From positions 1-54,229 of the IMG/VR virus record IMGVR_UViG_3300035698_007284: a stretch of 54,229 nucleotides of DNA; one strand, given 5' to 3'. Below, one piece after another: positions 2,809 to 49,731 of the stretch. This DNA comes from a virus. The translations under genes and the position numbers were made by a program. Under the pieces are notes generated by a model. The model was not told where the DNA came from, did not search any database, and worked only from the letters and a program-made list of their open reading frames with translations. The stretch's first letter is position 1; each line of letters begins with the position of its first letter.

Positions 2809-3383
2809 TAGTTCGCTTGTGTAACTTGGTGTTCTCTCCAGTCTTGACTCGTTCTTTTCATTTGGAGTACTTACGTATAATGACTCGCTCTATTGGGCTG
2901 GTTTACTTATCACCCATGACTCGTTCGCTGTCTGTGGTTTACTTATCACCCATGACTCGTTCGCTGTCTGTGGTTTACTTAACAATAGTGACTCGTTCGC
3001 TGTCTGTGGTTTACTTAACAATAGTGACTCGTTTCTGATTATTGGTTACCTCGCAGGCTCTGACTCGTTCCACTGATTAGGTTTTCTTATCTTCATTGAC
3101 TCGTTCTATTTATTTGGAGTACTTACGTATAATGACTCGCTCTTGAACGCTGGGTTACTAGCATGACATGACTCACTTTCTCTGCTTGGTATTCTTAATC
3201 CCACTGGTTCGCTTCCACACTTAGGTTTTCTCATCTTTATTGACTCGCTTTCATTTTGTGGTTTTCTTTTCCAATTATGACTCGTTCGTTAATTATGGAT
3301 TACTTAACGGGGATGACTCGTTTTCATATTTAGGTTTTCTCATCCTTATTAACTCGTTTGAGATATGGGGCTACTATAGAGTG
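2809..3383. repeat. 36-bp tandem repeat array, about 16 units
   Basis: Units begin at 2809, 2845, 2881, 2917, 2953, 2989, 3025, 3061, 3097, 3133, 3169, 3205, 3241, 3278, 3314 and 3350. The period is 36 bp except one of 37. Each unit has two conserved blocks, TGACTCGTTC and TGG-TTACTTA, separated by about 8 variable bases on each side. Units 2953 and 2989 are identical, and 2845 and 3097 share most of their sequence. The outer units are more degenerate. The array fills the gap upstream of the HigA-like gene and runs into the 3' end of the next gene (3330-3551). It could be iterons, operators or a partition site. Confidence 0.9.
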
Positions 3384-8178: not shown

Positions 8179-8207
8179 TTGATTTATCAAAAAAATACTG
8201 TTATAAT
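8179..8207 (+). promoter_or_regulatory. Rightward promoter candidate
   Basis: TTGATT (8179-8184) and TATAAT (8202-8207) are separated by 17 bases. The first usable ATG of the next gene is at 8209, so the message would be leaderless or nearly so. The frame open from 8179 starts inside this promoter and is unlikely to be translated from there. Confidence 0.55.
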
Positions 8208-9884: not shown

Positions 9885-10319
9885 TTGGCAGACGAAAGCT
9901 TTATCCCAACCGTAGACTTTACCGACTCGATTGAGTTGGGCCCCATCGAACCCGGACTGTATGGTTTTCAGATCAGTAAGTGGCAATACGGTACAGGTCC
10001 CTCAGGTGATCCTAAAGTTGATGTAGCCTGTGATGTGGTTAGGCCGGAAGGCGTACCCGGAAAGGTCTTTGACTCCATTAACTTGAAGAACGAATACACC
10101 AAACCTCGTGCCCGGAAAATAATGCTTATCACTGGTATGATTTCCCAGGAAGATGGGGAAAAGAACAAGGCATTTAGCATGCCGGCTACTGGGGACATGC
10201 TTGGAAGGCAGTTCTCAGCCAGGGTCAAAACTGTTGAGCAAGAAGGCTATCCCGACAAGAGCGTTTTCACCACGATGTTCGCTATTGCCGAGTACGATGC
10301 ACTTGCAGCTAAAACCTAG
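9885..10319 (+). CDS. DUF669-like single-strand DNA-binding protein
   Basis: 144 residues from TTG 9885, chosen because a perfect AGGAGG lies 7 bases upstream; an upstream GTG (9798) has no site. The order PGLYGFQI, then a beta strand with KVDVACDVVRPEG, then K-F-I-LKNEY, then GRQFSARVKT resembles phage DUF669/OB-fold proteins that act as SSBs. Base composition is clearly GC-richer than its neighbours, with C-ending codons, as expected for a highly expressed or recently acquired gene. It directly follows the annealing protein. Confidence 0.6.
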   Translation: MADESFIPTVDFTDSIELGPIEPGLYGFQISKWQYGTGPSGDPKVDVACDVVRPEGVPGKVFDSINLKNEYTKPRARKIMLITGMISQEDGEKNKAFSMPATGDMLGRQFSARVKTVEQEGYPDKSVFTTMFAIAEYDALAAKT

Positions 10320-10338
10320 GCCCTAGGAGGAACCGAAA
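10315..10338 (+). repeat. Copy 1 of a dispersed 24-bp element
   Basis: CCTAGGCC then CTAGGAGGAAC then CGAAA. It matches the element at 45971-45994 in 21 of 24 ungapped positions on the same strand. It includes the stop codon of the SSB-like gene and an AGGAGG with no start codon at useful distance. Confidence 0.6.
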
Positions 10339-10361
10339 TCTCTACTGGGGTACGTACCGTA

Positions 10362-10409
10362 GACTGGACTCAGCTGATGATGACCCACGTTGTTGGCCTG
10401 AGTCCAGTC
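10362..10409 (+). other. Perfect 12-bp hairpin
   Basis: GACTGGACTCAG (10362-10373) pairs perfectly with CTGAGTCCAGTC (10398-10409) around a 24-base loop. There is no run of T after it, so it is not a standard terminator. It may protect or process the SSB message. Confidence 0.65.
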
Positions 10410-10421
10410 AGATTTACTAAA

Positions 10422-10520
10422 ATGGAAACACTTATCAAACTACTAATTAAGGTAGCAATATTCATAGTGGTGTCTTATGCAGTAGTTTGGTTTACACTAG
10501 GACTAGCGAGGGGATTTTGA
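10422..10520 (+). CDS. Single-helix membrane miniprotein
   Basis: 32 residues: a short basic N-terminus, then one hydrophobic helix (about 7-28) ending in ARGF. The stop is one base before the RusA start, so it fits the operon. No clear ribosome site; low certainty that it is made. Confidence 0.4.
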   Translation: METLIKLLIKVAIFIVVSYAVVWFTLGLARGF

Positions 10521-10521
10521 T

Positions 10522-10887
10522 ATGTATATAGAAATGCCTTACATAGGTAAAGACATTTCGGAAAACTATTATAAAATTGTTGGGAAAGGTGGAGTAAAAA
10601 CTAATAAGACAAAACCAGTCGTTACCAGGTGGATGAACGACTTTGCAGATAAGGTTAGAAACAGTTCAGAGCATTCAGAGATGTTTGGTCACTCAGTTAG
10701 AGTATCATTAGCAGGAAGATTCATAGATGAAAGAAGTACTCCTGACCTGCATAATCTCCATAAGGTAATAGGTGATGCATTAGAGTCAGCTATTGGTACC
10801 AATGATAGACATATAAGGTTTAGAGACACTGGATACACAACTGGGCATATGAGACCTTTAATCTTAATGGAGATAGAAATTATTTAA
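10522..10887 (+). CDS. RusA-like Holliday junction resolvase
   Basis: 121 residues, family length. The RusA signature is present near residues 72-92: an aspartate before HNLHKVIGDALE, then a TNDRHI strand, placing the metal-binding aspartates as in RusA. It resolves branched recombination and replication intermediates. It belongs with the annealing and SSB-like proteins upstream. Confidence 0.75.
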   Translation: MYIEMPYIGKDISENYYKIVGKGGVKTNKTKPVVTRWMNDFADKVRNSSEHSEMFGHSVRVSLAGRFIDERSTPDLHNLHKVIGDALESAIGTNDRHIRFRDTGYTTGHMRPLILMEIEII

Positions 10888-11046
10888 TCCTATATTGGCT
10901 ACTATCAGCTTCTGCCTCCCAGCAGCGATCAGCCTAACCCCCCTTTATTGTTTCATTAAGCTGGTAGTAGCCAATATGGGATTAAGAAATAAATCCCATA
11001 TGTGCTTGGTCGGGTCGCCCCTGCCCGGACTGGCCCGGCCAGGCAC
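10886..11046 (+). ncRNA. Structured RNA with two competing hairpins
   Basis: A 26-bp stem joins 10886-10911 to 10958-10983, all paired with two G-U wobbles, around a 46-base loop that has its own small CTGC/GCAG hairpin. The 3' part of that stem (10974-10983) can instead pair perfectly over 10 bp with 10992-11001. Next, 11002-11009 pairs with 11039-11046 around GC-rich inner hairpins (CGGG/CCCG; CTGGCC-C-GGCCAG at 11030-11042). Mutually exclusive stems just before a ribosome site are typical of cis-regulatory RNA. It leads into the queC operon. It matches no preQ1 riboswitch consensus that I know. Confidence 0.65.
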
Positions 11047-11076
11047 CCCATAAAATCTAGAAAGAGGTTGTTAATA

Positions 11077-11415
11077 GTGGGTAACTATGTACTTAGAGTA
11101 GACAAAGAGAGAGTACCCTGGTTAATGAATTACCTATCTAACATGATTAAGAGTGGCCAGTTAGCAGAAGAGGATGCACCTGTTGTTAATCAGATAATCT
11201 ACAACATGAATGCAGCCTATAAAGCAGGTAGAGGTTCATTATCCTTCATCCAGGTTCCCCTGATGAAGTTTGAAGCAGACCTAATGCACAGTTTAAACCA
11301 GGCAGTTTGGAGAGGCATGAGGAATGAGCCTGAACAGACTGTACAGATCCATGGTGAAATTCCAGGTTACGAACTTGGAGATGACCCAGGATTTGATTAT
11401 AGAAGACTAACATAA
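11077..11415 (+). CDS. Hypothetical protein downstream of RNA element
   Basis: 112 residues from GTG 11077, 8 bases after an AGAGG. The frame is open to 11002, but that part is the GC-rich structured RNA and has unlike codons. The middle is helical (PWLMNYLSNMIKSG). No family recognised. First gene after the structured RNA, directly before queC. Confidence 0.6.
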   Translation: MGNYVLRVDKERVPWLMNYLSNMIKSGQLAEEDAPVVNQIIYNMNAAYKAGRGSLSFIQVPLMKFEADLMHSLNQAVWRGMRNEPEQTVQIHGEIPGYELGDDPGFDYRRLT

Positions 11416-11432
11416 GTAGGTACGGAGGTAAG

Positions 11433-12125
11433 ATGGTAAGAAAAAGTATTGTGGTACTTTCTGGGGGTCTTGACAGCGCAGTAACAGCTTACTTCGCTAA
11501 AGGTGAACTAGGAACTGAAGGAGAGTTATATACTCTCTCATTTTCGTATGGCCAGAAACATAAAAAAGAGCTTAACTGTGCTTCCCAATTATCTATGGAG
11601 TTGGGAGCAACAGAGCATACTGTATTAAGTCTAAACCTCGGTCAATTAGTTAGATCCTCACTAATGTTTGGGGGTCAAGAGATACCAAGTGGAGGAGTTA
11701 AAGAGGGAGAAATACCTTCTACTTGGGTTCCTCAAAGAAATACAATCTTCTTGGTACTTGCTGCGGCGTATGCAGAGAAAGTAGGTGCCTCCTCAATCTA
11801 TACAGGTGTAAATGCAGTCGACTACAGTGGTTACCCTGATTGCAGACCTGACTTCATTAAAGCAGTAAACATGACCATAAACCTGGCCTCTAAAAAGTTT
11901 GTAGAGACAGGTGAAGGTTTTGATATTAAAACTCCACTAATATACCTCAGTAAACCAGATATAATTAAGATGGGTATGAAACTTGGTGTTCCCTTTGATA
12001 ATACCTGGAGTTGCTATAAAGGGGGTAAGAAGGCGTGTGGAAGCTGTGATTCTTGTCTCATCCGGAGGCAAGCATTCTTGGATGCAGATTCTATAGATCC
12101 AATAGAGTATGAGGAGGTAGGATGA
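11433..12125 (+). CDS. queC: QueC, 7-cyano-7-deazaguanine (preQ0) synthase
   Basis: 230 residues, full length. The N-type ATP pyrophosphatase loop SGGLDS is at 10-15. The zinc-binding cysteines C194, C202, C205 and C208 are all present. It converts 7-carboxy-7-deazaguanine to preQ0 using ATP and ammonia. It has a GGAGGTAAG site and is followed by folE, dpdA-like and queF genes. QueD and QueE are 6-8 kb further on, so the virus carries the entire GTP-to-preQ0 route. Confidence 0.95.
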   Translation: MVRKSIVVLSGGLDSAVTAYFAKGELGTEGELYTLSFSYGQKHKKELNCASQLSMELGATEHTVLSLNLGQLVRSSLMFGGQEIPSGGVKEGEIPSTWVPQRNTIFLVLAAAYAEKVGASSIYTGVNAVDYSGYPDCRPDFIKAVNMTINLASKKFVETGEGFDIKTPLIYLSKPDIIKMGMKLGVPFDNTWSCYKGGKKACGSCDSCLIRRQAFLDADSIDPIEYEEVG

Positions 12126-13110: not shown

Positions 13111-13863
13111 ATGTTATTAGCTTTAGAATGGCCCCTAGACCTTATGGAGGAATTCCAGGAACTAGCTGACTTCGATTTTATACTTACTCACTTAATGGTT
13201 AAGGGCACACCTTACTATGAGTACTACAAAAATAGTAACAAGTATAAAATGTTAGATAACAGTACTAATGAACTTGAAACTCCCTGTGCCTGGGCAGATA
13301 TTAAAGAGGTTGCAGATAGTATAGGACCTAATAAAATTTGCCCTCCCGATTACTTAGGTGATAGCACAAAGACACTTAAGGCAATAGAAGATGCACTTAT
13401 GGAGTATGAACCTGATCAACTATTACCTATCATACAAGGCTCTACTCATGGTGAGGCATTATATGCTGCTGAAAAGATAGAAGGCTGGGGATGTACCTCA
13501 ATTGCAGTGCCTTACGATATAACTTTGGACAGACGAACTGCTGGTTTAGAGGCTATGGCTGAATCCCGGTTTCAGGTAGTAACTGACCTTATACTGAACA
13601 GAACCTTTCATTGGATACATCTATTGGGCTGTACAGGCACTGATGAACTACTTTCTTATGGGAAGGAAGAATTTGAAACAGTACTTTCAATAGATACTGG
13701 TTTTCCTATAACACAGGGACTCCACGGGATACAGTTGGGCAAAGATGAGCCTTTGGATAAGAAAACTATGCTTGACTTCGATAAAAAGAAAGTAGATGTT
13801 GGTATGGAAACTCTTAGTATATGCTATTACAATATAGCGTATCTTAGAGCCTGTATAACTTAA
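13111..13863 (+). CDS. dpdA: DpdA-like 7-deazaguanine transglycosylase
   Basis: 250 residues, a compact TIM-barrel of the tRNA-guanine transglycosylase superfamily. Visible landmarks are MLDN (47-50), PPDYLGD (78-84), IIQGSTHGE (107-115), HLLGCTG (170-176) and SIDTGFP (193-199), where D195 is the likely nucleophile. It lacks the usual C-terminal zinc domain of tRNA enzymes, as in short phage DpdA proteins, which exchange guanine in DNA for a 7-deazaguanine. Location between folE and queF supports a DNA-modifying role. A tRNA substrate cannot be excluded. Confidence 0.85.
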   Translation: MLLALEWPLDLMEEFQELADFDFILTHLMVKGTPYYEYYKNSNKYKMLDNSTNELETPCAWADIKEVADSIGPNKICPPDYLGDSTKTLKAIEDALMEYEPDQLLPIIQGSTHGEALYAAEKIEGWGCTSIAVPYDITLDRRTAGLEAMAESRFQVVTDLILNRTFHWIHLLGCTGTDELLSYGKEEFETVLSIDTGFPITQGLHGIQLGKDEPLDKKTMLDFDKKKVDVGMETLSICYYNIAYLRACIT

Positions 13864-31047: not shown

Positions 31048-31235
31048 TGGTACCCAATAATCCTGTACCAATAATGATCTCGATAATTATAGGGATACCC
31101 ATGGCCTCTGGTATAGTAGAATTAACTGAAGGTAATATACTTAAAGGTATACTTCCTATTCTAATAGGTGTCCTTGGATTAGTAATCTATCTAATAATAA
31201 TTAAGAAATGGTATACAAGGAAAAAGCATGATTGA
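31047..31235 (+). CDS. Two-helix membrane protein
   Basis: 62 residues. Helices at about 5-25 and 30-52, basic C-terminus (KKWYTRKKH). It overlaps the polymerase gene by 8 bases. Not recognised. Confidence 0.55.
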   Translation: MVPNNPVPIMISIIIGIPMASGIVELTEGNILKGILPILIGVLGLVIYLIIIKKWYTRKKHD

Positions 31236-33699
31236 CCTAAGTTTATGTAACTGTGAAGAATGTCCTATGCAGGACAGTGACATGGTCCCAACAAGGGACA
31301 TCTTCCTTTCACCTTATGGTGTTCCATATCAAGCGGTAATAAGGAATGGAGTATTTACTCATAGATTCAAGAGAGTACAGTATCAAGAAAAAGAGGAAGA
31401 TGTAACAATACTATTTATAGGTATGGCCCCTGCCTGGGAAGAAGTCGCACAGTGTAGCTTCTTTGTTGGTGCATCTGGAAAACTGCTGAGGAAAGTAAGT
31501 GATCAGTTAGATGTTCCAAAAATAGTAGTAACTAATACACTTATTTGCAGGATAAAAGAAGGCTCAACTGAATCTGAAATAACAAGGGCCAGTAGATGCT
31601 GTAGTGGTAGACTAGATAAAGAAATAGAGGATATGCAGCCTGACTTAACTATAGTACTTGGCAACTTACCTCTTAAGAGGATATTAGGTCTTGAGGGAGT
31701 TCAGAAGGTAGAAGGTAAAATAATAGACAGTGACAAGTATGGGCCTGTACTACCAATTACACATCCGGCTGCTGCACTTAGAAATCCAGACTTTTATTTA
31801 GACTTTGTTTATGCCTTTAAAAAGGGTATTGACTTTCTAAATGGAACTTGGAAACAGATAACCTGGGTACCAGAGACAGTAGTTGCTGATGCTACAAATA
31901 TAACAGATATCTGCCAGATAATAAATAATGCACCAGAGGTAGCAATAGATTTAGAAACCACAAGAGGTGGCCTACATCCTTATGGTAGGGAACCTGATGG
32001 CATAAGATGTGCTGCAATTGCAGTAGAAGAGAGAACTGCTTACATTATACCTGGAGAGAGTTCAGTTCACTTTGAGCCTCATCCTAACTATATGCAACAT
32101 CCAGGTTTAATAGAGGTAATGAATAAGTCCAATACTATAATGCATAATGGCCAGTTTGATAATGCCTTCCTTTGGCAAGCAGGGTATGATACTACTATAG
32201 GGTATGATACTATGCTTGCAGCCTACGTTAAAGATGAGAGATCCTGGGCAATAGGATTAAAGGCCCTATCACAGAGAATACTAGGTGCACCTGAGTGGGA
32301 AGAAGACCTTGGTAGATGGAGACCTACTTCCAAGTCAAGTTTCGACTTAGTGCCAGATGATGTCTTATATGGATACGCATCCTGGGATGTAACTTGTACC
32401 TATATGCTTAAAAAGCACTTTGAGAAGATAGTAACCGAAGAATACTTCTTTGATCTACTTATGCCCTGTACCAATATGTTTGTAGATCTAAGACATAGTG
32501 GTGCTAGAGTAAATCCTGGTATGTTAATGAAAACAGATACATTCATAGCAGAGGAACTATTAGCTACAGAGAAAAGATGGTATGAGATGGCAGGGTATAG
32601 ATACAATCCCATGTCCCCTCAAGATAAATGCGATTATCTCTATGATGTATTAAAACTTCCTATGGACAAGCACCTGGGTAGAACATCTAGTAAAAAGTAT
32701 TTAGAGAAGTTTGCTGACTTGGAACAGGTTCAACTACTAATGGAAATTGGTAGGATGAATAAATTAAGATCAACCTATGTACTATCAGTAGCAAACTTCA
32801 TGGACAATGATTATCTCATTCATCCTAACATTAAACTATTTAGTACAGTAACAGGTAGAGCATCTGCTGAAGACCCTTCTGTAATGAATATAGTAAGAAA
32901 TAAAGACATAAAAGCAATGTATGAGCCTAGGGATAAAGATAAGTGGATGATGAGTGCTGACCAGAAGCAGATGGAGTTAAGATGGTACGTAATAGTTACT
33001 AGGGATGAATACCTTAAGAATTTACTATTAACAAGTGACCCCCATGACATAATAAATCAGGAGGTGAATAGATTATCAAATGGTGACTATTCTAGAGGTA
33101 AAACAAAGACAGCAGTTTTTGGAGTCATATATTTAAGAGGAGCAGAATCCCTTGCTAGAGGATTTAATTTAACTTTGCCTTCTGCTAACCTTTTAAAGAA
33201 CACAATAAGGAATTTAGTTCCCACAATAGGGGATTATCATGAGTCGACACTAAATGAAATAAAGGCAACTGGTGAATTAACAACATACTTTGGTAGGAAA
33301 AGAAGAATGGGGTTATTAACTAAAGATAACATAAATGAAATCCAAAGAATGGGTGTTAACTTTAAGATTCAGTCTCCCGCATCAGATACTAACTTATATG
33401 GTATGCTTCATGCCTATAATAATCAAAAGAGATTGGGTTGCAGGCCATTATGGCCCATCCATGATGATGTACTAATGGAGATTGATCACCCTGACTGTTG
33501 CCTCCAAATCAAGAAAGAACTAGAAGAATGTACAATGGCTCTAGTTGATAACTATATGCAGTTTACAATAGAACCTAAAGCAGGTAAGAATTGGGGATAT
33601 ATGAAACCTATTTGTCCCACTTGCGGTAAGCAGGTAGAAGTAGTAGACATTAAAAAGCATTGGGATGGATTAGAGTATCATAGTAGTTGTCTAAATTAA
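31228..33699 (+). CDS. Uracil-DNA-glycosylase / family A DNA polymerase fusion
   Basis: 823 residues. Residues 1-205 resemble family 4 UDG: cysteines 7, 9 and 12, GMAPAWEE (65-72), TNTLICR, C123/C124 and the HPAA motif (179-182). Residues 230-400 are a 3'-5' exonuclease with DLET (241-244), HNGQFD (306-311) and YASWD (383-387). The polymerase has motif A DQKQMELR (D578), motif B RGKTKTAVFGVIY (623-635) and motif C HDD (745-747). A CPTC...C zinc-like tail ends it. Phage SPO1 polymerase has a similar N-terminal UDG-like domain. This is probably the main replicase. Confidence 0.9.
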   Translation: MIDLSLCNCEECPMQDSDMVPTRDIFLSPYGVPYQAVIRNGVFTHRFKRVQYQEKEEDVTILFIGMAPAWEEVAQCSFFVGASGKLLRKVSDQLDVPKIVVTNTLICRIKEGSTESEITRASRCCSGRLDKEIEDMQPDLTIVLGNLPLKRILGLEGVQKVEGKIIDSDKYGPVLPITHPAAALRNPDFYLDFVYAFKKGIDFLNGTWKQITWVPETVVADATNITDICQIINNAPEVAIDLETTRGGLHPYGREPDGIRCAAIAVEERTAYIIPGESSVHFEPHPNYMQHPGLIEVMNKSNTIMHNGQFDNAFLWQAGYDTTIGYDTMLAAYVKDERSWAIGLKALSQRILGAPEWEEDLGRWRPTSKSSFDLVPDDVLYGYASWDVTCTYMLKKHFEKIVTEEYFFDLLMPCTNMFVDLRHSGARVNPGMLMKTDTFIAEELLATEKRWYEMAGYRYNPMSPQDKCDYLYDVLKLPMDKHLGRTSSKKYLEKFADLEQVQLLMEIGRMNKLRSTYVLSVANFMDNDYLIHPNIKLFSTVTGRASAEDPSVMNIVRNKDIKAMYEPRDKDKWMMSADQKQMELRWYVIVTRDEYLKNLLLTSDPHDIINQEVNRLSNGDYSRGKTKTAVFGVIYLRGAESLARGFNLTLPSANLLKNTIRNLVPTIGDYHESTLNEIKATGELTTYFGRKRRMGLLTKDNINEIQRMGVNFKIQSPASDTNLYGMLHAYNNQKRLGCRPLWPIHDDVLMEIDHPDCCLQIKKELEECTMALVDNYMQFTIEPKAGKNWGYMKPICPTCGKQVEVVDIKKHWDGLEYHSSCLN

Positions 33700-33716: not shown

Positions 33717-34361
33717 ATGGAACCCAGACCTTACAAAGGAAGACCTAAGGTAGCTCAGATGCTATACAAAAAGGGATATCTAAGTAGACTGCCCTATCAG
33801 ATAGATAGATCTGATTTAAGGTACGATGATGGAGTAGATATAGTTTACGAACTAAAAAATCTACCTCCAGAAAAGTTTGGAGAGGCCTCAGATATTCTAT
33901 TAGGGGCAGCAACTGAAGAGCTTAATAGATATAAGGATATACAATTTAAGTTCGCAACTATAGATATTAAACTTAATAGAACAGCAAGAGGTAGGAAGAA
34001 GGTAGCAGAAGTAAGATCCTATACAGCTGCTAAGCATTATGATGCAGATGTAATGATTTATGGGGAGAAAACATTAGGGTATGAACTACCTGACTGGGTG
34101 GGTAAAAAACCCTTCCTTATAAATAAAATAGAAGAGATCCTTGCGATACCTGAGGGCCCAAGTCCTGGCCCTTTTGTTAAGAAACAGAAACCCTTTACTG
34201 TATTAAGAATGACGTTTTCAGTAAGGGTGGGTAAACAGACACCTGAAAAGGTTGAAGGGGCCAAGGGAGTTTTCCATAAAAGTAAGTTCGTTGATCTGCC
34301 TACAAGTGATCCACAAGGTATAGATTACTGGGGTGGGGAAAAACCAGGAACTATTAGATGA
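33717..34361 (+). CDS. Unknown basic protein between the polymerases (terminal-protein candidate)
   Basis: 214 residues, basic, no membrane segment, start after AGAGG. Residues 75-115 are strongly basic (KLNRTARGRKK) and the C-terminal third is rich in K, P and G. It overlaps the family B polymerase start by 4 bases. In phi29-like genomes the terminal protein gene lies directly before the polymerase gene, so position alone suggests a protein primer. No sequence proof. Confidence 0.6.
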   Translation: MEPRPYKGRPKVAQMLYKKGYLSRLPYQIDRSDLRYDDGVDIVYELKNLPPEKFGEASDILLGAATEELNRYKDIQFKFATIDIKLNRTARGRKKVAEVRSYTAAKHYDADVMIYGEKTLGYELPDWVGKKPFLINKIEEILAIPEGPSPGPFVKKQKPFTVLRMTFSVRVGKQTPEKVEGAKGVFHKSKFVDLPTSDPQGIDYWGGEKPGTIR

Positions 34362-36130
34362 TACCTACATTTGATATAGAATTACTAGGATGGACTGACC
34401 CAGTAGCTTTAGGCTACTATGATGGAACCACTTATCACGAGTTCCTAAAGACCTCTGATGAAGCAAACGTGGTAAGTGAGTTCCTTGATCACTTAATAAA
34501 ATACGATATGATGGGAACCAAAATCTATGCCCATAGAGCAAAGGACTGTGACAATAAGTTTATACTAAGAGAGTTATACAGAAGGGGAGAAAGAATAGGC
34601 TTCGTAGGAGGAACAGGCAGATTAACTTGGGAAGACCAATTAATAGTATTTGAAGACAGTTACTTAACACTTACAAGGGCACTAAGAGCTCTCTGTGAGG
34701 CATTTGGTGTAGAAAGAAAACTTTACTGGGACCATAGTAAAACTAAACCTATCTGGGAAATGGCGAATGCACTAGATGCCTTTAGAGCGTATCTAAAAAG
34801 AGACGTACTAGGTCTATCAGAGGTAATGGACAAATACACAGAGACTCTATTAGAAAACTTTGGTATACTACCTTCCCTAACAATGCCACTTACAGCAGTT
34901 AAAGCCTTTGATAAAAGATACTACTCAGTTGGTGAGATACACTCAAATGAGCAGGTTGAAGGCCCTATAAGGGAAGCGACATATGGGGGTAGGAACGAGG
35001 TCTTTAAAAGGTACGGTAAAGGAGTATATATGTATGACGTAAGAAGTATGTATACTTCTTGCTATAATACAGGAGTCCCTATAGGGGCACTTAAATGGTG
35101 TCCTCCAGACATAGACAAGCCTGGTATAGTCTATGCTAAAGTAAAAGTGCCTGATAGCACTCACTTAGGGCCTCTTCCATATAGGTTTAGATCCAATAAC
35201 ATGACAACATCTAGACTTATTTTTCCAGTAGGGGAGTTCCAGGGTTGGTGGGATGTCAGAGAACTAAAAATGGCAATACAGATGGGTGTTGATGTAACTA
35301 TCATAAAGCAACTAACAGGAGAACACTATCCTGCATTACAAGAATTTGGTGCAAAGATCTGCGAATTAAGAAGTTCAGCCCCTAATAAACAGATGAGTGG
35401 CGTTTGGAAACTCTTTGGTGTTAGATTAAGTGGAAAGTTGGGCCAAAGAAGAATTTCAAGTGAGATTAGACACGCACAAGATATAGAGGATTTCACAGGT
35501 TGGCTGCCAATAGATGAAGAGGAATGCTACCACGAAAAGGTAAGTACTAGTAAGGGTAGAAGATCCCCCTATATAAAACCTGCTGTAAACATGGCAATAC
35601 GGGCAGAGGCAAGGATAAGGCATATGGAAAGGTTAATGGAGGTATATACAAGAAAGGGGCAGTTGTATTACTGTGATAACGATTCTATATTCTCAAATAA
35701 ACCATTATTTATAGGTCAGGATGCTGGTGAACTTCAATTAGTAGATCATGCAACTGAAGCCTACTTCATTAGACCTAAATTTTATGGGTATGAGGACGAT
35801 AGGGGAAACTTCAAACAGAGAACATCGGGGTATAAAGACTTTAAATTAAACTTATCTGATTTTAAGAGGATATTAAAAGGAGAGAAAATACTAAACACTT
35901 TTGAGACACTTAGTGGTTGGAAAACTGCTATGTCAGAAGAGGGACTCAAGAGGATAGAGTCAAAGAGATCAGTTAAGGTAACTAGAGAGTTTGAAAATAG
36001 AGTAACAAAGGGAATTTATACTTTCCCACTAAAACTTAGAACTAGCCCTAGTGGAGGACTATCAGTTCTGAACGTAGATAACCCAGATGAGTTTTTGAGG
36101 ACTTCAAAGCAGGGACATGAGGATTCTTAA
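34358..36130 (+). CDS. Family B DNA polymerase, protein-primed (phi29-like) type
   Basis: 590 residues, close to the phi29 enzyme. Exonuclease motifs: DIE (6-8), an ExoII region near 58-65 and YLKRD (145-149). The YxGG-type motif is YGGR (209-212). Polymerase motif A is DVRSMYTS (D227), motif B is KLFGVRLSGKLGQ (351-363), motif C is YCDNDS (438-443, D440 and D442), and KFY (474-476) is the KxY motif. The 125 residues between motifs A and B leave room for the TPR1 insertion of protein-primed enzymes. Last gene of the rightward block. Confidence 0.85.
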   Translation: MIPTFDIELLGWTDPVALGYYDGTTYHEFLKTSDEANVVSEFLDHLIKYDMMGTKIYAHRAKDCDNKFILRELYRRGERIGFVGGTGRLTWEDQLIVFEDSYLTLTRALRALCEAFGVERKLYWDHSKTKPIWEMANALDAFRAYLKRDVLGLSEVMDKYTETLLENFGILPSLTMPLTAVKAFDKRYYSVGEIHSNEQVEGPIREATYGGRNEVFKRYGKGVYMYDVRSMYTSCYNTGVPIGALKWCPPDIDKPGIVYAKVKVPDSTHLGPLPYRFRSNNMTTSRLIFPVGEFQGWWDVRELKMAIQMGVDVTIIKQLTGEHYPALQEFGAKICELRSSAPNKQMSGVWKLFGVRLSGKLGQRRISSEIRHAQDIEDFTGWLPIDEEECYHEKVSTSKGRRSPYIKPAVNMAIRAEARIRHMERLMEVYTRKGQLYYCDNDSIFSNKPLFIGQDAGELQLVDHATEAYFIRPKFYGYEDDRGNFKQRTSGYKDFKLNLSDFKRILKGEKILNTFETLSGWKTAMSEEGLKRIESKRSVKVTREFENRVTKGIYTFPLKLRTSPSGGLSVLNVDNPDEFLRTSKQGHEDS

Positions 36131-48749: not shown

Positions 48750-49415
48750 CTACAGGTCATTAGCAGAGACCCTCTTTTGTTTGCCAGTAAGAGCAATTCT
48801 CTCACTAGTATCGTATAAAGGCCAGTATTTAGGACCTGGAACAACTATCGTCCAGTACCGAGAGGCTCTGTCCCTTGCCCTTCTATTAAAAAAGGACACT
48901 GTTCCAAATCCAGTCTTACCATAACCTAAGCACCTGCCACATACGTTTTCTCCCATAGGCTCACCATAAGCATCAGCTGGGTTATCCCCTTTATACTCAC
49001 CACTTCCCTTACATCTTCTACATGGAGTTTCATCCTCAAAGTTGCAAGTACCCCTAATGTCAATTGCTCTTCTTAGTCTCTTATCAACGTGGTCAACATG
49101 ATGAGTACATACATAAAGGTCAACATTTCTCTTTCTTGTCTGAACTATGAAATAAGTCATTAACTTATTAACCTTACCAGTAGCATTTCTACTATCCAAT
49201 ATCTGGTACATCTCATCCAGCCACAGTGAGCAGTTTTCTATTTCATCATCCTCTAAGTGCTCAAGGAAATAATCCATTGTGAACCTGGTATGAGGAAACT
49301 CAACCCACGCATTAGATAAAATCTTCCTCTTTTTAACAGCCCAATCTCTAAAGATTAAAGCAACTGTAGAAACTGACTTACCACACCCCTGCGTACCTTC
49401 CAATGTTATAATCAC
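48750..49415 (-). CDS. Zot/FtsK-HerA-like ATPase with inserted zinc finger, packaging candidate
   Basis: 221 residues from GTG 49415 (GGAGG 9 bases upstream). Walker A GTQGCGKS (7-14), Walker B LWLDE (64-68), then LDSRNATGKVNKLMTYFIVQ, TRKRNVDLYVCTHH and VDKRLRRAIDI, the arrangement of Zot-like and viral FtsK/HerA-type ATPases. Residues 132-162 carry CRRC and CGRC pairs in a DnaJ-like CxxCxGxG style. Such ATPases drive DNA or virion export in non-tailed viruses. A P-loop-less paralogue is at 30368. Confidence 0.75.
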   Translation of the reverse strand: MIITLEGTQGCGKSVSTVALIFRDWAVKKRKILSNAWVEFPHTRFTMDYFLEHLEDDEIENCSLWLDEMYQILDSRNATGKVNKLMTYFIVQTRKRNVDLYVCTHHVDHVDKRLRRAIDIRGTCNFEDETPCRRCKGSGEYKGDNPADAYGEPMGENVCGRCLGYGKTGFGTVSFFNRRARDRASRYWTIVVPGPKYWPLYDTSERIALTGKQKRVSANDL

Positions 49416-49416
49416 T

Positions 49417-49731
49417 TTAGTCGTCCTCCATGCCTGATCCCTGACCACGCCTTGATGCTAACGCAACTTCAGCAAACTCATCTCGACCTTTTCTGTCCTT
49501 ACTAACATGCAGGATTGCAAAGGATTCCATGGCGTCCTTTAACAGTTTTGACTTGTACTTAAGCCTAATAATGTTCATAACAATGAGAGGATACATAGCA
49601 TCCGGATCTATTTCTGTCAACTGCATCAGTTTCTTAAAGTCCTTTGTCTCAAAGAATGCATTGACTACTCCCGCATCCCTGTCTCCAGTTAGGGCAATAA
49701 TATCTCCAATTACACCTGGACTTTTAGCCAT
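49417..49731 (-). CDS. Hypothetical helical protein
   Basis: 104 residues, predicted all-helical (VIGDIIALTGDRDAGVVNAF, KLMQLTEIDPDAMYPLIVMN) with a charged tail. Its stop is 1 base before the ATPase start. The upstream sequence TTTAAACGGAGGT also precedes the genes at 46726 and (as TTAAACGGAGGT) 44524. Confidence 0.6.
   Translation of the reverse strand: MAKSPGVIGDIIALTGDRDAGVVNAFFETKDFKKLMQLTEIDPDAMYPLIVMNIIRLKYKSKLLKDAMESFAILHVSKDRKGRDEFAEVALASRRGQGSGMEDD

Follow-up and report, generated by a model that had tools for sequence, protein, structure and literature searches.

Gene neighbourhood of the element

An intergenic element containing a long stem (P1), a GC-rich hairpin (P2) and a hairpin that competes with P1 (Palt) was located on the + strand of a viral sequence. 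The window, i.e., the whole stretch of DNA analysed, is a complete IMG/VR virus record of 54,229 bases that is possibly a fragment. The element lies directly downstream of a gene for a RusA-like Holliday junction resolvase (10522..10887, + strand), which shows a weak Pfam match (RusA, E 4e-4, slightly under the curated cut-off) and ends in the stop codon TAA at 10885-10887. The 5' arm of P1 overlaps this stop codon, and the 3' end of the element lies short of the following ribosome site. The gene directly 3' of the element is a 112-aa open reading frame (11077-11415, + strand) that starts with GTG. Its ribosome site, AGAGG (11065-11069), and its start codon together occupy 11065..11079.

The first recognisable preQ0 gene downstream is queC (11433..12125, + strand; Pfam E 5e-73), followed on the same strand by folE (12511) and queF (13875). 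A queD-like gene (17927) and a queE-like gene (19385) were assigned from their similarity to preQ0 gene clusters in other viruses. A first-pass annotation of this DNA had placed the element before the queC operon; queC does lie downstream, but the 112-aa reading frame comes between. The preQ0 gene cluster also contains a gene for a 250-aa protein (13111-13863), which matches only PHROGs 19058 and 20335 of unknown function and may, judged by eye, be TGT/DpdA2-like.

The element sits within a long co-directional run of + strand genes. A promoter scan found no convincing queC promoter inside the gap, and the only strong promoter-like sites nearby are a divergent sigma-70-like pair at 8101-8073 (- strand) and 8179-8207 (+ strand), with 12/12 and 10/12 matches, respectively, and TG before the -10 box in both. 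Since these strong sites occur only at 8.1-8.2 kb, the element region is probably transcribed by read-through from upstream. The same promoter pair indicates a bacterial host. A possible leader peptide reading frame (ATG 10976 to TAA 11053; 25 codons) is GC-rich, has no clear Shine-Dalgarno (SD) sequence and was judged unlikely.

The virus carrying the hairpin is otherwise an orphan. Searches with the RusA-like protein, the products of the reading frames at 11077 and 9798, and the Rad52-like and PolB proteins gave no usable relative of the region; the lone match (contig L051) covers 28 residues in a different protein. The DNA of the region gave short chance matches only when compared with phages and plasmids, and near-exact patterns of P1 and P2 were not found in viral and genome contigs, in searches from which very near records were possibly left out. 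No second copy of the element is present within the window. A mobile palindromic repeat (MITE or REP-like) was rejected on the basis of the single copy in the window and the absence of a near-exact pattern in the contigs. The virus encodes an unusual combination of a UDG-fused family A polymerase and a protein-primed-type family B polymerase, together with a Zot-like ATPase that shows weak similarity to Lokiarchaeota virus WyrdV1 (31228-33699, 34358-36130 and 48750-49448). An array of 36-bp repeats (TGACTCGTTC...GGTTTACTT) at 2825-3377 is apparently non-coding and may represent iterons or an origin.

Stems P1 and P2 and the alternative helix Palt

P1 is formed by 29 consecutive pairs between a 5' arm (10883..10911) and a 3' arm (10958..10986), with three U·G pairs, the third of which is terminal, and zero mismatches. 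A stem of 26 bp with two wobbles around a 46-nt loop had been described previously; it was found at 10886-10911/10958-10983 and is the same helix minus the last three pairs. The loop (10912..10957), with 18 C and 6 G, is rich in C where the rest of the strand is rich in G; it holds a small internal hairpin (CTGC/GCAG). Such an excess of C over G occurs in only 0.4% of the 46-nt windows in the gene run, and C-rich stretches are also present inside genes.

P1 is the longest gapless stem of the 54-kb window and is far beyond chance. When the whole window was shuffled 200 times with dinucleotides preserved, the longest stem reached 21 bp (mean 16), and 21 bp was also the longest gapless stem in the other viral DNA retrieved (377 kb, both strands). 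The 221-nt region folds on the + strand with -85 kcal/mol (z = -6.65; no shuffle equally stable), whereas the opposite strand reaches -75.5 kcal/mol (z = -3.2); the strand presumed to be transcribed thus folds better.

P2 (11002..11046, + strand) comprises 16 bp including four G·U pairs and is present in both alternative folds of the element. It is the second-longest + strand stem of the window, and 35 of its 45 bases are G or C, a value reached in the 54 kb only by windows overlapping P2. It is thus the GC-richest 45-nt stretch save for one overlapping window that is one base better, and its GC content is anomalous for this virus. P2 is the GC-rich folded segment noted earlier, and the ribosome site before the GTG at 11077 follows it. 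The arms of P1 and of P2 depart from perfect complementarity by seven U·G pairs in total, all of which are compatible with pairing and also explicable by C-to-T changes on the + strand. The wobble pairs were therefore rejected as proof of selection at the RNA level and are treated as weak evidence.

Palt (10974..11001, + strand) is a perfect 10-bp hairpin with an 8-nt loop, in which part of the P1 3' arm (ATATGGGATT, 10974-10983) pairs with sequence just downstream (AATCCCATAT, 10992-11001), as had been claimed. It is the only perfect Watson-Crick hairpin of at least 10 bp with a loop of at most 20 nt in the window. By a rough estimate, chance alone would give one to two hairpins of this kind per window, so that the position of Palt is notable rather than its existence. 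The 3' strand of Palt repeats the outer 5' arm of P1 (AATCCTATAT) as a third copy, which gives the P1 3' arm two near-identical partners to choose from. In the alternative state, the inner part of P1, Palt and P2 form three flush helices, with 10973 adjacent to 10974 and 11001 adjacent to 11002.

Evaluated without extra pairs, P1 with P2 has an energy of -69.3 kcal/mol and inner P1 with Palt and P2 an energy of -64.2 kcal/mol, a difference of 5.1 kcal/mol. Coaxial stacking was not counted in this evaluation and would be expected to narrow the gap. P1 should prevail in a free transcript, as it is more stable and its 5' arm is made first. When 10870-10898 is blocked, as a ribosome at the rusA-like stop would do, the minimum-energy fold is predicted to be inner P1 with Palt and P2; for transcripts with their 5' end at 10968-10974, the predicted fold opens with Palt, adjacent to P2. 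The predicted probability of being unpaired differs little between the P1 plus P2 fold and the alternative fold, both for the SD sequence (0.36 and 0.33, respectively) and for the start codon (0.18 and 0.13, respectively), which suggests that the fold does not affect access to the ribosome site. The sequence supports a structured RNA in which the pairings exclude each other.

Metabolite sensing, message processing and other explanations

The mutually exclusive pairing upstream of preQ0 genes had been taken to suggest a switch. The pairing itself exists; for metabolite sensing, no class match and no predicted coupling to the SD sequence or to a terminator was found. The known preQ1 riboswitches form pseudoknots, which either sequester the SD sequence or steer a terminator (PMC11625349). 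The element resembles preQ1 classes I-III (PMC11625349) in its location upstream of queuosine-precursor genes and in its alternative pairing, and differs from them in lacking a pseudoknot consensus, an Rfam match and any predicted coupling to the SD sequence or a terminator. The Rfam scan proposed in the first-pass annotation found no family at the gathering score for the element. Its remark that no known preQ1 class fits agrees with the searches: none reached the gathering threshold, and none appeared at E up to 10 in 10300-11500. The low-E Rfam matches are eukaryotic microRNA models, which fit any long hairpin, and were rejected; mir-633 on the opposite strand, for example, has an E of 4e-5 but scores 34 bits against the 90 needed. 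Scanning of 10880-11060 on both strands gave no call for an intrinsic terminator. The stems are followed by AAATAAATCCC and CCCCATAAAATC, neither of which is a run of U, and an intrinsic terminator was rejected because a GC-rich hairpin without a directly following U run does not form one. Among 47 other viral queC loci, examined over up to 2 kb upstream as available, no gapless stem of more than 16 bp was found, and an Rfam scan of 34 of these loci detected only tRNAs and no known riboswitch.

The riboswitch reading thus rests on position and alternative pairing. A riboswitch responding to preQ0, preQ1 or guanine and regulating the queC genes would have to be of a new class, for which these analyses provide no support. 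It is favoured by the placement of the element before queC, folE and queF and by the reality of the competing pairings; the unaffected SD sequence and terminator in the predicted alternative fold, the missing Rfam and preQ1-class matches and the lack of comparable stems at the 47 other loci all speak against it. The uninterrupted helix of 26-29 bp also does not resemble an aptamer, which has to open and close, and no homologue was found that could display covariation. This is the least probable of the explanations considered here.

The element looks more like a site for cutting or protecting a message than a metabolite-sensing switch. The preferred reading, to which we assign a probability of about one half, is an intercistronic RNA processing or stability element in a long viral polycistronic message. 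The position of P1 at the stop codon, the long gene run, the absence of a terminator tail, the second hairpin and the unaffected ribosome site all fit this reading. So do the length of P1, far above chance, and the better folding of the strand presumed to be transcribed. P1, at 29 bp (10883-10986), exceeds the more than 20 bp (about two or more helical turns) of an intergenic RNase III-type site. The 29-bp duplex at the rusA-like stop is long enough for cleavage by an RNase III-type enzyme of the host, and a cut there would divide the message into an upstream part and one for queC-folE-queF. Released from its partner, the 3' arm of P1 could re-pair as Palt, which would stack flush against the GC-rich P2. 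The downstream message would then open with two stable, closed hairpins that protect it from 5'-end decay, and its ribosome site would be unchanged by the cut. This analysis shows the helices, as sequence and predicted fold, together with their excess over chance, their location and the predicted constancy of the ribosome site; transcription across the region, cleavage, refolding and stabilisation are inferred. Other strong intercistronic hairpins of this virus precede unrelated genes, which fits general mRNA handling and not preQ0 sensing.

Hairpins of the ompA type, reportedly described by Emory in 1992, stabilise messages from the 5' terminus. Palt with P2 would similarly close the 5' end after a cut, but the closed end of the element depends on that putative cut. 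RNase III sites of E. coli lie in long duplexes, many of them intergenic, and phage examples are known (PMC5371410). The element shares with the processing stems of T7, T3 and lambda (PMC5371410) a long intercistronic duplex between co-directional genes, and differs from them in the greater length of its unbroken helix, its 46-nt loop, the flush fit of the alternative helix and the GC-rich cap, and in that its cleavage is putative. The kind of element is known; the example itself is new and unusually long. Several points count against the processing reading: no homologue was found in which the stem is conserved, the U·G differences can all be explained by C-to-T changes, and both the 46-nt loop and the flush Palt go beyond what a cutting site requires. 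If the processing reading holds, the element illustrates how a long run of viral genes may be divided into messages under separate control, here just before genes of the 7-deazaguanine (preQ0) pathway.

P1 might instead serve the upstream transcript, through factor-dependent termination or 3'-end protection, and have no role for queC. The absence of a U run means that termination would need a factor, either Rho or a viral factor acting on the C-rich loop. The immediate succession of stop codon and P1 and the C-rich, G-poor composition of the loop agree with this idea, which is nevertheless unlikely: co-directional genes continue beyond a gap without a good promoter, a 46-nt loop is short for Rho loading, and C-rich stretches also occur inside genes. 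A variant is control of the upstream gene in the manner of lambda sib, where retroregulation depends on an RNase III-type hairpin after the stop codon of a phage gene. The arrangement is alike in the hairpin 3' of a stop codon, but here genes continue downstream and no terminator is adjacent. Similarly low odds apply to an origin at the DNA level, in which template switching or a mobile element left a near-perfect inverted repeat that has no RNA function. The one-strand C-to-T explanation of the arm differences, the anomalous GC content of P2 and the failure of near-exact patterns to find anything similar in viral and genome contigs would be accounted for in this way. Three strong flush helices within one intergenic gap, the better folding of the coding strand and the lack of a second copy in the window argue the other way.

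A ribosome terminating at the rusA-like stop could also free 10974-10983 for Palt, so that upstream translation would set the fold and the fold in turn the cutting, decay or read-through of the downstream message. By a footprint estimate, a ribosome at 10885-10887 covers about 10886-10897, which is exactly the outer arm of P1. The fold predicted when this region is blocked, the energy difference of 5.1 kcal/mol before coaxial stacking of the three flush helices and the third copy of the outer arm are consistent with such gating. The estimate, however, comes from general knowledge, Palt is perhaps a by-product of a short duplication, and no output is visible, with SD and start-codon accessibility unchanged and no terminator; gating by the ribosome is accordingly rated somewhat below the two preceding ideas. 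More doubtful again is the full scheme, in which the terminating ribosome displaces the outer 10 bp of P1, a helix of similar stability forms flush between two others, and translation of a recombination nuclease is thereby coupled to the fate of a DNA-base-modification message. Only this putative three-helix scheme would come as a real surprise. Should Palt be used, the element would be an unusually clean example of an RNA that is refolded by the termination of translation.

Other stems in the window and at viral queD loci

A very strong intercistronic hairpin of about 24 near-perfect base pairs is present at 45990-45913 on the - strand, where CCTCCTTA pairs with TAAGGAGG, and precedes a 500-aa membrane-protein-like reading frame. 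A perfect 12-bp inverted repeat (GACTGGACTCAG/CTGAGTCCAGTC) at 10362-10409, the loop of which pairs further, lies in the gap before a small membrane reading frame and the rusA-like gene.

A different element was detected in ten other viral contigs, in which a stem of about 17 bp is situated just before queD, mostly right after the preceding stop codon. It lies at L014:5135-5310, L018:3368-3545, L023:5150-5327, L025:4975-5140, L030:4945-5110 and L046:4970-5132, and is also present in L021, L022, L026 and L031. Five pairs of the stem show two-sided compensatory changes across six sequences. An invariant 17-nt motif follows the stem, and the sequences found there are the invariant TTGTCCATAGCTAGACT and the nearly invariant ATAGACAGCTTTTGTC. 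Each contig with this stem has a single occurrence of the motif CATAGCTAGAC. The pre-queD element has no match among known phages and none in Rfam, where the best sub-threshold model is chrB-b RNA (20.9 bits against 36.5). It is a candidate for a new cis-acting RNA or for a terminator-promoter cassette in a preQ0 operon, and has better comparative support than the P1 element.
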